Shown piece after piece: positions 6,533 to 11,297 of a stretch of DNA of 24,624 nt (position 1 is its first letter; every line of letters begins with the position of its first letter). The stretch is taken from IMG/VR virus record IMGVR_UViG_3300031803_000009, positions 1-24,624 of that record, one strand, 5' to 3'. The stretch comes from a virus. The notes under the pieces were generated by a model. It ran no database searches and was not told the DNA's origin. It saw only the letters and a list, made by a program, of their open reading frames with translations. Made by a program: the position numbers and the translations under genes.

Positions 6533-8569
6533 TTAAGATGACGTAAAGGCATCTGCGCCTTCAAAGGAACTACCACCTTTGGTAGTATCTCTTTGGGCAG
6601 CCATCACCACTTGCCCTGATGAGTTGGTGTTCGTTACATTGTTAGTCTGAGGTGCGTTCATCACGACTGGTGCCGCGCCGGCTGCTTCGTTTTCTGATTT
6701 TTGAAGTGCCTGTTCTTTGAGTACCTTGTCTACTTTGTCATCTGTTGGCACGGGTTCAAAGTCTCCTCCCGGCATAGCCGCTCTTGCCTGGCCACGGGCT
6801 CTATCTATTTGGGCTTCTTCATCACGAATCTTTTTCAGTGCGGCAGGATCGTCTTGCGCCTCAAGGAATTCTTTTAGTTTTTCTGGGGTCCGGTATTCCT
6901 CTCCAGTTTTTGCTTTATATGCCATCTTGGCGGAACGGCGGGCAGACCCCATCAATGAATGCTTTGAGAGCATCGGATTTTTCTCTATGGCGGCTTCCTC
7001 GTCCCCAAGAAGGATAGCCCGGTCTTGCTCGCTTAATTCACCGAACTTGTCAATACTTGCATCTTCATCCACCCCATCGCCTTTGGGCTTGTCATCGCCG
7101 CCGCGCTTGAAGAGGCCACCCAGCTTGCCCAGGGCGCCGGCGATCATTCCGCCACCCTTGCTGAGAGTAGCCATAATATTTTCCAATGTGAAAATACCTT
7201 TAATTGTCTCCCACACTTCTGATAAGGTTTCTTTAAACGTTACCCATAGTTCAGTGAACTTGTCGCTGATAGCAGTAAACGCTTCTCGGACCCCTCCGGA
7301 AAGGTCAAAGTCAAAATCACCCACCGCAGCAGCAGCGTCTTCAGCACCGAAGAATCTTAATACTGACTCCACAAGGCCTTTGATCCAATTCAAAGGAGCG
7401 TCGATTATATTTTCGATATAACCTTCTACCATTTGAATCATTCCTTCTACAAAACCTCCTTCTTGAAACCCTTTAATAAAATCTTGTACTGCCGTGAAGG
7501 GAGCCGCGATAAAGGCAATTACTGGGTCTATAAAATCTAATAATTTTCCAAATAAACCAGAGAAGTCAAATTCAAATGCATCTAATTCCTTTGAAAATTC
7601 ATCGAAACCTAGGAACCCTGCTATCCATGAAATCATATCTTTAATAAGATTTAGAGGCATGTCAATTAAACTATCCACTACATTCATAAGTCCAGATTTT
7701 ATGCTCTCGACAATATTGCCTTCCTTCTTAAATTCATCAACAAAACCTGAGATGAATGAGAAAATACCCATAATAATAGTAATAGGTAGAAACATTTTTG
7801 CAAATATTTTACTAGCTGCTTTACTAAAGTTCCAAAGCCCTTTGATGATCTTTATTATCGGACCAAGAAATTTTAGTATTGAGGTCATCATCGTGCCCAT
7901 GATGCCACCCTGTTCTTCTGCCTCTTCCTCTTCTTCTGCTGGTGCTGCTCCTGGTGCTCCACCCTTCCCTTTTGCTGCCCGGGCCGCTTCTCGTTTTTCT
8001 TCAATTGCTTTTAATTTAGCGGTAGGATCTACCTTTTCGCGGATTTTTCTAAAGCCTGCAAATTTACCGTCAATTTTCATCTGTCCTTGTGGTGCACCTC
8101 GTTCCCCAGGCGCGCCGCCTATCTGCCCTCCCCCTGGCATCCCCCCACTCGCCTCCCTGGCTTGTTTAAATATTTTACCTAACCACTCTTGGGTTTTTTC
8201 TACGGCTCTTTCTACAGCAAAAATAGAATCACGAATATCTTCTAAGATAGTTTCTAGATTTTCAAGGCCAAGCATACTACCCAAAGCACTCAAACCTTCG
8301 GCCGATTCATCCAATTTATCAGAAGATTCGGAAAGGTCTTTCCCAGCCTCTTTAAGTTTTTTGTCTGGCTTATCGTCATCGCCACCAAACATTGTTCCCA
8401 TAGCTGCCGCAGCCGCCATGACCACCGGAGGAGCATTTAATGTTTGTAGAGGATTGCCTAGAGCAGCCCCGGCAGCCTTCAAAGGCTCCATTGCAGGACC
8501 CATTGTTTCTTGAATGAATCCTGTACCTGCTTCTACGGTACTGCCTGTTGTTGGTAGTGCTACTGCCAT
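6533..8569 (-). CDS. tape-measure-like tail protein
   Basis: This 678-residue protein starts directly after the gp51 stop (TAA then ATG), the place where a tape measure follows its chaperones. It is Ala/Gly-rich with a long helical N-terminus (70-140) and Gly/Pro-rich linkers (142-165, 200-212). An acidic run of Glu (212-219) precedes hydrophobic membrane-like segments around 226-278 and 290-360. A helical repeat unit occurs twice (about 299-340 and 386-427). Such mixed helical/hydrophobic architecture is typical of tape measures. By the usual ~0.15 nm per residue, 678 residues would fit a tail near 100 nm, as in T4 (gp29, 590 residues). I see no clear sequence identity to T4 gp29, so the call rests on position and composition. 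Confidence 0.65.
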   Translation of the reverse strand: MAVALPTTGSTVEAGTGFIQETMGPAMEPLKAAGAALGNPLQTLNAPPVVMAAAAAMGTMFGGDDDKPDKKLKEAGKDLSESSDKLDESAEGLSALGSMLGLENLETILEDIRDSIFAVERAVEKTQEWLGKIFKQAREASGGMPGGGQIGGAPGERGAPQGQMKIDGKFAGFRKIREKVDPTAKLKAIEEKREAARAAKGKGGAPGAAPAEEEEEAEEQGGIMGTMMTSILKFLGPIIKIIKGLWNFSKAASKIFAKMFLPITIIMGIFSFISGFVDEFKKEGNIVESIKSGLMNVVDSLIDMPLNLIKDMISWIAGFLGFDEFSKELDAFEFDFSGLFGKLLDFIDPVIAFIAAPFTAVQDFIKGFQEGGFVEGMIQMVEGYIENIIDAPLNWIKGLVESVLRFFGAEDAAAAVGDFDFDLSGGVREAFTAISDKFTELWVTFKETLSEVWETIKGIFTLENIMATLSKGGGMIAGALGKLGGLFKRGGDDKPKGDGVDEDASIDKFGELSEQDRAILLGDEEAAIEKNPMLSKHSLMGSARRSAKMAYKAKTGEEYRTPEKLKEFLEAQDDPAALKKIRDEEAQIDRARGQARAAMPGGDFEPVPTDDKVDKVLKEQALQKSENEAAGAAPVVMNAPQTNNVTNTNSSGQVVMAAQRDTTKGGSSFEGADAFTSS

Positions 8570-8761
8570 TTATCTACTCTTCTTCTTATTCTCTATTCGT
8601 TCGTTTTCTTCTGCAATCCATTCCATTAACAATGCAATATAAATTTCTCTTTCCCAGGGTATCATTTCTTCTAGCTCAGTCAGGCTATATTTGTGATGTT
8701 GCATCAATGAAAAATTAACCCGATAGTAATTAATCAATGTTTCATGACTGAGCCCTATCCA
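8570..8761 (-). CDS. 51: gp51-like hub assembly factor, probably made as a -1 frameshift extension of gp26
   Basis: The frame from TGG (8761-8759) to TAA (8572-8570) encodes 63 residues and is open from the slippery site of gp26. Its core HHKYSLTELEEMIPWEREIY matches gp51-type proteins of T4-like phages. In T4, gp51 and gp26 are needed for baseplate hub assembly. There is no good independent start before the conserved part: the only nearby ATG (residue 20) has no ribosome-binding site, and the 19 preceding codons look coding (GLSHETLINYYRVNFSL). This supports production as a gp26-gp51 fusion of 302 residues, like lambda gpG-T. Independent initiation at the ATG is the alternative. Confidence 0.75.
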   Translation of the reverse strand, partial: WIGLSHETLINYYRVNFSLMQHHKYSLTELEEMIPWEREIYIALLMEWIAEENERIENKKKSR

Positions 8762-9477
8762 AAAAAATTCTGCATTCCCTCGATTTCTACTTCGTTATCC
8801 TTTTTGCATTTGTTACAAATTAATGTGTCTTTGTATTTCACCTTTGGCATTGTATCGAAGAATGCCTTAATTTTCCCGAATTGGTCCTGAGTTAATCCTT
8901 CTAAAAATTCTGCGGTTTCAGATTTATCGGTATCCTTCATTTTATATACAGCATTTTCGTCATAGATAGATTCCATACATTCTATAATGACCTCTAATAT
9001 ATCATCAACACTATCAGTATCGAAATTTTGATCTATGATAGTTTCAAGGTCGGGGTATTTCATCGTAATGCCAATGGTATTTGTCAAGTCGATTTTGCTG
9101 GTATGTTTAGGATCTTTTGTCACCTTTACATCATCAATATTAACCGTGAAATTAATTACATTGTCGCAGGCTGTTTTTCCCTTTTTATTTTTACATTTAT
9201 AGGTTAAGTCAATTGTTTCTCCAATAGATTTTGCTCTTAGTAATATGAAAAAATATTCAAGGTCAAAAGGTGCCAGTGCATCCACATCAATATCATCTAG
9301 ACAACAATTATTGATGGTTTGTTTTAAGGCAAGGGCCATTTCATTCTTGTCTTTGCCTTCCATTGCCATTAACAATATTTTTTCTTCTTTTACTAAAAAT
9401 GGTCGATATTTAACCTTTTGTTCTGTTGACGGAATTGTCATTTCAAATGTGGGTACGTTAATCTTAGGTAGTGCCAT
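8755..9477 (-). CDS. 26: gp26-like baseplate hub/tail assembly chaperone
   Basis: The 240-residue protein has the T4 gp26 (baseplate protein) signature: KYRPFLVKEEKILLMAME (23-40), PFDLEYFFILLRAKSIGE (70-87), KYPDLETIID (140-149), and a C-terminal CNKCKKDNEVEIEGMQNFFG. The two C-x2-C and C-x8-C pairs (95/104 and 221/224) could bind a metal. In T4, gp26 acts with gp51 and gp28/29 in building the central hub. By position between tube and tape measure it equals the G-type tail assembly chaperone. The ribosome-binding site GGAG lies upstream with 9 bases of spacing. Its last codons run through a T7 tract where a -1 shift would extend it into gp51. Confidence 0.8.
   Translation of the reverse strand: MALPKINVPTFEMTIPSTEQKVKYRPFLVKEEKILLMAMEGKDKNEMALALKQTINNCCLDDIDVDALAPFDLEYFFILLRAKSIGETIDLTYKCKNKKGKTACDNVINFTVNIDDVKVTKDPKHTSKIDLTNTIGITMKYPDLETIIDQNFDTDSVDDILEVIIECMESIYDENAVYKMKDTDKSETAEFLEGLTQDQFGKIKAFFDTMPKVKYKDTLICNKCKKDNEVEIEGMQNFFG
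8761..8781 (-). promoter_or_regulatory. probable programmed -1 ribosomal frameshift site
   Basis: On the minus strand the gp26 codons read AAT TTT TTT GGA TAG. The heptamer T-TTT-TTT (8767-8761) has the X-XXY-YYZ form with tRNA-Phe re-pairing perfectly after a -1 slip. A Shine-Dalgarno-like GAGGGA (8781-8776) lies 8 bases upstream, near the spacing that stimulates -1 shifting in E. coli dnaX. Shifting skips the TAG and enters the gp51 frame. Confidence 0.7.
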
Positions 9478-9505: not shown

Positions 9506-10195
9506 TTAAAGTATATTACTAAGAAAGTTTCCTGCTTTCTTAACTTTGGTCATAAATTGACCATCGGCTCGACTCACAACTGCGACTCCAAAATCGTCTA
9601 TTGCTCCTGTTATATCGAAGTTTGGATATAGGCTGTTGATTGACAAATTGTTTCCAAACGGGGAAAATGGTATTTGTTGTATATGCCATTTGCGATATGC
9701 AAAAGTGACATTTAAATTATGAAACGTATTTGTGCTTGACCAATCAAGGGCAAGGGGCGCAACTATTATAGGATAGGCGTCAATAAATTTACAGGCATAA
9801 ATAATATTTTGTTGGTCATCATATTGTTCAATTTCAATATCTGCAACATATTGGTCAAAATAATTTACTCGCCCTGTCCCTGTTTTAATAATTGAATCTT
9901 GCCATTCTTCAAAAAGGTCTCGGGGAAATAGATTTTTGTTTGTGCAGTATATTCCTAACTGAAGGTCATCATAGATTGAATTATAAGGAGCCTTGCGAAT
10001 TGGCCCGTGTGTTCTAATGTCGTTTGTGGCTAATGCTCTTCCGGGAATGATAGCCTGATTGCAGAGCATAGATATAGCCTGCGCCGTGCTATTTTTTAAT
10101 ACTCCTCCTGTGATGAGTACCCTAAATTTATTAGGTTGAGCAAGGCCTCCTTGCTTATTGATTTCGCTTTTAAACCCGTTTATATTAAATGGCAT
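9506..10195 (-). CDS. gp19/gp54-family tail tube protein
   Basis: The 229-residue protein has the conserved outline of T4-like tube proteins: a start near KQGGLAQPNKFRV, the LCNQAIIPGRALATNDIRTH block (44-63), LFEEWQ, NYFDQYVADIEIEQYD, and NVTFAYRKW. The gp19 tube, gp54 tube initiator and gp48 cap share this fold. It is longer than T4 gp19 (163) and shorter than gp54 (320). As the gene lies directly before gp26/gp51/tape measure and near gp4, gp54 or a tube paralogue both remain possible. Its ATG abuts the stop of the upstream gene, with GGAAA as ribosome-binding site. A TATAAATA box on this strand lies ~180 bases upstream inside the preceding gene, suggesting its own late promoter. Confidence 0.75.
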   Translation of the reverse strand: MPFNINGFKSEINKQGGLAQPNKFRVLITGGVLKNSTAQAISMLCNQAIIPGRALATNDIRTHGPIRKAPYNSIYDDLQLGIYCTNKNLFPRDLFEEWQDSIIKTGTGRVNYFDQYVADIEIEQYDDQQNIIYACKFIDAYPIIVAPLALDWSSTNTFHNLNVTFAYRKWHIQQIPFSPFGNNLSINSLYPNFDITGAIDDFGVAVVSRADGQFMTKVKKAGNFLSNIL

Positions 10196-10840
10196 TTATT
10201 TTCCGCCCCGATTCATTATTTGTTGACGACTTTTCATCCAAACTTCTGTTTTTCTAGAGTTTTGAAATCTTTCTAGTGGTAAAAATAGAGCAATATCCCA
10301 CTCTTCTTTACTTAACTGTATCATCCGTGACCTCATATTTGAAAACTTGTATTGTTTTAAACAGGGTCTAAAGTATTTATACTTTGCAAACCGCGATAGC
10401 CTACTGTAGTTTATCTTTCTCCAGTCTAGCTTGCCTTCTTGAGATTGTTCTGAACGGTCTGCTGCGTCTGGAGTCTGTCTTACCAAATCAAGGAGGCGGT
10501 CCATAAAAATGGCTCGTAACTTCCAATCTAGATAATGGAAGTTAATAGCCAAAAAACCTTCGTTTGTTAATTCGATGGGTACGACAAGGGGAAATGCATC
10601 CCAGAAGGGAAGATTATCTTTACCTTCTGCTTCATAAAAGAAATAATACATATTTCCGAGAAGGCGTCTTCGTAGGGTATAATGTTTATGTCGTTCTTTT
10701 GCAGACCATACTTGACGAGGAGTTGTTCTTGTTCGTCTAGCTTTTTGTTGAAACCATCTTGTGGCCTGCCGGGTTTCTCTAGGAAGAGTTCCTTTTGCTG
10801 CGCCTTCTTCTAGAATTTTTTGAAATACCATTTTTGCCAT
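10196..10840 (-). CDS. conserved T4-like phage protein of unknown function
   Basis: The protein (214 residues from this start) has a very basic N-terminus (TRQATRWFQQKARRTRTTPR). A block follows, YYFFYEAEGKDNLPFWDAFPLVVPIEL, GFLAINFHYLDWKLRAIFMDRLLD. I recognise this block as recurring in marine T4-like phages, but I cannot assign a T4 number. It lies between gp4 and a tube protein, so a head-completion or tail/DNA-end role is possible. Starts at 10858, 10840 and 10831 are all possible. 10840 is preferred because AGGA lies 11 bases upstream, but even so the gene overlaps gp4 by 62 bases, which is long for a phage. Confidence 0.6.
   Translation of the reverse strand: MAKMVFQKILEEGAAKGTLPRETRQATRWFQQKARRTRTTPRQVWSAKERHKHYTLRRRLLGNMYYFFYEAEGKDNLPFWDAFPLVVPIELTNEGFLAINFHYLDWKLRAIFMDRLLDLVRQTPDAADRSEQSQEGKLDWRKINYSRLSRFAKYKYFRPCLKQYKFSNMRSRMIQLSKEEWDIALFLPLERFQNSRKTEVWMKSRQQIMNRGGK
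10374..10381 (-). promoter_or_regulatory. T4-type late promoter box TATAAATA (minus strand)
   Basis: An exact TATAAATA reads leftward inside the 220-residue-class gene, about 180 bases before the tube gene start. It could raise expression of tube, gp26/51 and tape measure. The exact match is certain and its use is inferred. Confidence 0.5.
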
Positions 10841-11297
10841 ATAAGTATTTATCCTCATTGAGGAGTTTTATGCCTAAGTCTTTGAGAGTATCTTCTGTCC
10901 AGATTTGAAACTCCCAACCTCGGTCCTTTGCATATTCTTCGGCATAGGTCCATTTAGATATGTTCATGCCATAGGCCATCATTTCTGAGATATATTTTCG
11001 TGTGACACGAGCCTTCTTTTTTGGGGGCTTGGTTTGGCGTTTAGGTTTAATTTCGGCCAGAATTGTGTTACCATTATTGAATGTGATTTTTAGGTCAACG
11101 AAGTATCTGTGCATTTTACCGTCTGTTGCCGATTTGTAGGGAACAACCACCGATTCGCTCGACCAAGATTTGATGTCAGAATTGGTGTCGCACCATTTGA
11201 ATGTTTGTCGTTCCCATAGAGAACGATAGACAATTTTGGTGGGGTCACCGTCATATTTGTCGCGATTTTTTGGGCGCCATTTGCCTTTATAACTCAT
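10779..11297 (-). CDS. 4: gp4-like head completion nuclease-fold protein
   Basis: The 172-residue protein matches T4 gp4 (150 residues): YDGDPTKIVYRSLWERQTFKW (T4 YDGDVNKIIYRSMWELKCFMW), then SESVVVPYKSATDGKMHRYF (T4 SEEIVVPYVSPVDNRVHRYF). The residues E29, D68 and E82-x-K84 (AEIKP) form the catalytic pattern of a TnsA/PD-(D/E)XK nuclease fold. In T4, gp4 is needed to finish the filled head before tail joining. The C-terminus is a basic RRRRSKR tail that overlaps the start of the next gene. No Shine-Dalgarno and no late box for this strand are visible in the 51-base divergent gap. Confidence 0.88.
   Translation of the reverse strand: MSYKGKWRPKNRDKYDGDPTKIVYRSLWERQTFKWCDTNSDIKSWSSESVVVPYKSATDGKMHRYFVDLKITFNNGNTILAEIKPKRQTKPPKKKARVTRKYISEMMAYGMNISKWTYAEEYAKDRGWEFQIWTEDTLKDLGIKLLNEDKYLYGKNGISKNSRRRRSKRNSS

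Follow-up and report, generated by a model that had tools for sequence, protein, structure and literature searches.

Genes 26 and 51 of an uncultivated T4-like virus as probably one tail assembly chaperone gene with a predicted programmed -1 frameshift

Do the gp26-like and gp51-like reading frames of T4-like viruses represent two genes, or one gene near whose end a fraction of the ribosomes change frame? The question is raised by a locus in an IMG/VR record of an uncultivated T4-like virus; "the window" below means the whole stretch of DNA that was analysed, 24,624 b in length (Table 1). The gp26-like frame ends ATG CAG AAT TTT TTT GGA TAG, and this end, the in-phase run of seven T and the GAGGGA 8 bases upstream of it are all exactly as an earlier, sequence-only reading had described them. 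That reading had also claimed that the -1 frame is open for 63 codons, with 19 codons ahead of its first ATG and a tape-measure-like gene directly behind it, and the sequence bears this out: the -1-frame stop ends at 8570 and the tape-measure-like ORF starts at 8569. The -1 product begins WIGLSHETLINYYRVNFSL-MQHHKYSLTELEEMIPWEREIY, WIGLSHETLINYYRVNFSLMQHHKYSLTELEEMIPWEREIYIALLMEWIAEENERIENKKKSR being the peptide read in the -1 frame from the second TTT, and no SD-like 4-mer precedes the first -1-frame ATG of the window. In-frame sites of the form T_TTT_TTY occur seven times in the 7,593 codons of the 26 window ORFs, and the gp26 site is the only one that lies 40 codons or fewer from a gene end. 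As a single site in one sequence the gp26 T-run is modest evidence; its conservation in 84 of 86 non-redundant loci is what decides that it is more than chance.

Table 1. Coordinates of the features discussed (window positions unless a relative is named)
Feature	Coordinates	Strand	Details
gp26-like ORF, short tail assembly chaperone (TAC-N)	8755..9477	-	240 aa; PF12322 T4_baseplate E=3.8e-62; phrog_150 E=2.4e-70; AlphaFold mean pLDDT 85.9
GAGGGA, SD-like, proposed dnaX-type frameshift stimulator	8776..8781	-	8 nt upstream of heptamer; last G of GAGG 10 nt upstream
T_TTT_TTT slippery heptamer, -1 frameshift site (predicted)	8761..8767 (+ coordinates)	-	in phase; T_TTT_TTY in 84/86 non-redundant loci
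-1 frame past the slip, gp51 / TAC-C domain	8570..8761	-	63 aa + stop; phrog_634 E=2.2e-27; phrog_150 C-terminal part; model pLDDT 85.6
Full frameshifted product TAC-NC (predicted)	8570..9477	-	302 aa; profile of such fusions aligns gap-free to T4 gp51 at junction
Tape measure protein, presumed chaperone client	6533..8569	-	678 aa; phrog_991 E=2.4e-13, phrog_58 E=3.6e-12, both "tail length tape measure protein"
Upstream tail tube / tail tube initiator family protein	9506..10195	-	phrog_45 E=1.4e-35; phrog_3629 E=2.6e-29
Cyanophage stem-loop	L010 (P-SSM2) 2501-2550; L020, L037, L051, L083, L086, L089, L095		covarying

In the window a tube-family gene is followed by gp26, gp51 and the tape measure gene. 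This is the order that the sequence-only reading had put forward as tube, 26, 26/51 and tape measure, and the order stands; the identity of its first member is less secure. Because the upstream gene matched tail-tube families and because the HTVC008M gene at the same position is annotated as tail tube initiator, it could resemble gp54 instead of being the major tube. Farther upstream are two minus-strand ORFs (10196-10858 and 10779-11297) that overlap by 80 bases, an overlap that may simply reflect a start called too early in the second ORF. By their place in the gene order, these two ORFs may correspond to the gp4 and gp2 neighbours found in relatives.

Seven relatives of the locus were found by sequence and 80 more by profile, to which named phages were added, and thinning to less than 85% likeness at the junction left a non-redundant set of 86 loci. 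Retention of the T-run across relatives had been proposed as a check, and the run was indeed retained: an in-phase T_TTT_TTY is present in 84 of the 86 loci (67 TTTTTTC and 17 TTTTTTT), a count of loci that share ancestry and not of independent events. The heptamer lies one codon ahead of the gp26 stop in 76 of the 84, and gp51 follows it in the -1 phase in every case. The phase and position of gp51 formed a second check, and in all frameshift-type relatives examined it adjoins gp26 in the -1 phase. In all 84 loci the two Phe codons are preceded by a codon with T in third position, whichever of S, N, D, A and G it specifies; given the codon usage of the same genes, and with shared ancestry ignored, log10 P for this bias is about -18.5. 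Of the two Phe codons themselves, the first is TTT at all 84 loci, compared with 71% elsewhere. Furthermore, GA[AG]-GG is kept in relatives at the position of the SD-like element, the last G of which precedes the heptamer by 10 nt in 43 loci and by 6 nt in 28, and the Glu codon within it is GAG in 45 loci and GAA in 21, against 24% GAG elsewhere in gp26, a preference that makes for a stronger GAGG. Rhizobium phage LG08 and Stenotrophomonas phage Yut3 also have T_TTT_TTC. In Pelagibacter phage Mosig (L019, about 1498-1525) the 0-frame stop comes eight codons past the heptamer, leaving a natural dual-coded stretch, yet conservation of the -1 peptide already sets in at the heptamer.

Of the 86 loci, only two lack the heptamer, those of Vi01 (Ackermannviridae) and of Vibrio phage K469. 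In these phages and in SWJM-01, Ds5CZ, PWKp5, CRW-SP2, Kuja and Vibrio phage D524, gp51 is still in the -1 phase and the site is ATT_TTC or CTT_TTY rather than a full heptamer; in Vi01, SWJM-01, PWKp5 and Kuja no ATG is found at the start of the -1 segment. Such a non-canonical site lies at the gp26 stop of the Ackermannviridae and related Vibrio phages at loci L015, L018, L102-L105, L108 and L110, and several records of these phages have no gene annotated at the gp51-like ORF. The ATT_TTC and CTT_TTY sites are reminiscent of the site in T7 gene 10. They likewise recall the GTTTTT motif of the Vandenendeviridae (PMC12846349).

Taken on its sequence features, the locus is very probably best explained by programmed -1 ribosomal frameshifting that yields TAC-N and TAC-NC. 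The rival that survives best, still a very unlikely one, is that a separate small gp51 is made by termination-coupled re-initiation after the gp26 stop, the -1 phase being a by-product of an overlap of one or a few bases. Cyanophage relatives do have an ATG 2-3 nt past the stop, and are annotated accordingly, and TAATG is found in some Ackermannviridae and in KVP40-like phages. The latter belong to the 30 of 84 loci with an ATG no more than seven codons past the slip site, where re-initiation could also give a separate gp51. Against this, none of ATG, GTG and TTG occurs among -1 codons one to seven in 47 of the 84 loci, a group to which the window belongs. A conserved gp51 start or ribosome-binding site was sought in the relatives and none was found: as the sequence-only reading had claimed for the window, gp51 has no ribosome-binding site, an SD-like 4-mer at the proper distance being present at 0 of 83 candidate gp51 ATGs, against 62 of 82 gp26 starts and 9.7% of random positions. 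Re-initiation also leaves the invariant T_TTT_TTY unexplained, would have to use an ATG that is held within a covarying stem in many cyanophages, and does not account for the fused form carried by T4.

The protein encoded ahead of any ATG argues further against re-initiation. The sequence-only reading had called the codons before the first ATG coding-looking, and among the seven closest sequences the 18 codons from the slip to the first ATG give a pN/pS of 0.24 when read in the -1 frame, the 0 and +1 frames giving 0.70 and 2.97. The stretch ahead of the first ATG is under selection as protein of the -1 frame. Within the -1 peptide, L9, N16 and F17, all of which precede M20, vary little or not at all among 38 sequences. 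The peptide is predicted to form three helices; since the first spans residues 9-22, a start at M20 would be expected to remove or cut it. The second ORF, as judged from these comparisons, appears to have no independent initiation. A separate start for gp51 was considered and rejected on the missing start codons, the pN/pS values, the conserved residues before the ATG and the lack of an SD.

Stimulatory structure in the RNA downstream of the heptamer differs among lineages. No strong structure is predicted downstream in the window (z of -0.32 over 50 nt and -0.56 over 70 nt), nor in its close relatives (z from -0.70 to +0.84). Many cyanophage loci, in which the heptamer is T_TTT_TTC, have a stem-loop of the form GTATGGCNCA - 9 nt - TGNGTCATAC that starts 5-6 nt after it, which is the classic spacing between heptamer and stem. 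Across 18 aligned loci 85.9% of the cells pair, and double-sided changes number 10 cells against 3.8 +/- 1.3 after shuffling (0 of 500 shuffles as high). When the partner is slid by 1-3 columns pairing falls to 26-49%, a control biased towards the stem that was picked from these same sequences. The best covarying pair has U-A, G-C and A-U versions, and the annotated gp51 ATG of the cyanophages sits within the 5' arm of the stem. Strong hairpins occupy the same place in L011 (S-PM2; 2215-2260), L043 and L070, with sequences unrelated to the common cyanophage stem, and these suggest repeated gain of the stimulator.

We lean slightly toward a lineage-dependent control of frameshifting, in which the window would use an SD-like element and T7 without a strong stem-loop, many cyanophages an SD-like element, T_TTT_TTC and, 5-6 nt downstream, a covarying stem-loop in which the annotated gp51 start is hidden, and the Ackermannviridae a -1 slip on ATT_TTC or CTT_TTY. 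The cyanophage stem-loop over the gp51 start and the Ackermannviridae slip sites are possibly the less documented parts of this scheme.

It is very unlikely, and less likely than re-initiation, that RNA polymerase rather than the ribosome slips on the T-run, so that some mRNAs with an altered run encode the fusion in frame. A homopolymer run does exist, and the protein to be expected is alike for both processes. However, in the 67 loci with TTTTTTC the run amounts to only six T followed by C, and six T are short for polymerase slippage; the SD-like element at its preferred distance and the cyanophage stem-loop 5-6 nt downstream are stimulators of ribosomal frameshifting. A sequencing or assembly error in the homopolymer, with one continuous ORF as the true gene, can practically be dismissed: although a run of seven T is prone to indel errors and T4 gp51 is a continuous ORF, the identical split recurs in 84 non-redundant loci, most of them with TTTTTTC and some of them finished genomes of cultured isolates, and this conservation in finished genomes refutes it in practice.

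Programmed frameshifting at the gp26 end would give a product for which T4 offers a ready comparison. Genes 26 and 51 of T4 are neighbours on opposite strands, and the first frame of the window's gp26, T4 gp26 and T4 gp51 all match PF12322. The -1 frame of the window matches phrog_634, "baseplate hub assembly catalyst", and also positions 226-277 of the 282 in phrog_150; since this is the C-terminal end of phrog_150, that family already holds members with both parts joined. T4 gp51, a single ORF, matches phrog_150 from 13 to 280 as well as phrog_634, and the phrog_150 match of T4 gp26 stops at position 235. When the profile of predicted fusions is aligned to T4 gp51 the alignment passes the junction with no gap there, and T4 gp26 terminates exactly at the junction (GLKEFFEL). 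By these alignments, T4 gp51 reads as the natural one-piece homologue of the predicted fusion.

A search of the PDB for sequence relatives of gp26 or of T4 gp51 found none. The two parts of the fusion, gp26 and the -1 peptide, were folded separately. When the gp26 model was compared with the PDB by Foldseek, the highest probabilities went to the HK97 tail assembly chaperone 2ob9 (0.77) and to 3fgx (0.54), neither of them significant, and 2ob9 was the sole sensible match to a phage-assembly protein (E 0.68; 61 columns aligned at 3.7 A, roughly one quarter of gp26). The likeness of the gp26 model to the HK97 chaperone is weak; among viral models, the gp26 model matches gp26 and gp51 proteins of many phages.

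The proposed course of events would begin with most ribosomes stopping at the gp26 TAG to give the short form, TAC-N. A fraction would pause as the upstream GAGGGA pairs with 16S rRNA, move one base back on T_TTT_TTT, and read through the -1 frame to give the long form, TAC-NC. Both forms would then coat the tape measure protein encoded next, with the tail tube polymerising around the tape measure as in the case of lambda G and GT. We infer the slippage, its frequency and the role of the SD-like element in this scheme, and a chaperone function is suggested by knowledge of the family together with the published T4 assignment. The "26" and "51" of this locus are almost certainly one tail assembly chaperone gene.

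The abstract of a paper by Vladimirov et al. on T4-like phages reportedly names T4 genes 26 and 51 and describes frameshifting as kept in several T4-like groups. Parallels also exist in other systems. E. coli dnaX has an SD-like element about 10 nt before its heptamer and, as in the cyanophage relatives, a stem-loop 5-6 nt downstream; it differs in its slip sequence, A_AAA_AAG in place of T_TTT_TTY, and from the window in that the window has no strong stem-loop. Furthermore, the dnaX slip leads to the short form, whereas the slip proposed for gp26 leads to the long one. The G/GT region of lambda, an instance of the -1 frameshift conserved among phage tail genes (Xu, Hendrix & Duda), lies just before the tape measure gene, like the pair of frames described here. 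A short and a long product arise there from a -1 slip late in the first frame, at a slip sequence other than that of the window. A chaperone of the Vandenendeviridae (Pseudomonas phage Adele), a different phage family with a different motif, has a -1 frame that is open in every genome and the conserved polyT motif at the end of TAC-N, with the downstream ORF usually annotated as a separate hypothetical gene (PMC12846349).

The sequence-only reading had proposed that T4-type gp26 and gp51 are the G/GT chaperones in disguise. The proposal was correct without being new: the tail chaperone genes of T4-like phages were identified by Vladimirov, Gautam & Davidson (Virology 2022;566:9-15), as that work is cited in PMC12846349 and PMC10885494. 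As described there, the families are the same 26 and 51, with short and long forms sharing an N-terminal part. Vladimirov et al. are credited with polyT slip signals in the TAC-N genes of T4-like phages (PMC12846349), and with the finding that in some T4-like phages the short and the fused long form instead have a gene each (PMC10885494). By the latter account T4 has separate short and fused long genes, whereas the window has one gene and a slip. The window locus is, in relation to the 2022 publication as cited in these sources, a well-supported new example and not a discovery.

The annotated gp51 start is wrong at least in the lineages that have no start codon at all, and is probably wrong in most lineages. 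If control of the slip is indeed specific to lineages, hundreds of marine-phage genes annotated as "gp51 baseplate hub assembly catalyst" would have no start of their own. The "baseplate hub" protein and the "baseplate hub assembly catalyst" in hundreds of marine phage records are very probably one frameshifted tail chaperone gene, and the independent environmental sequences support the 2022 assignment of T4 genes 26 and 51.
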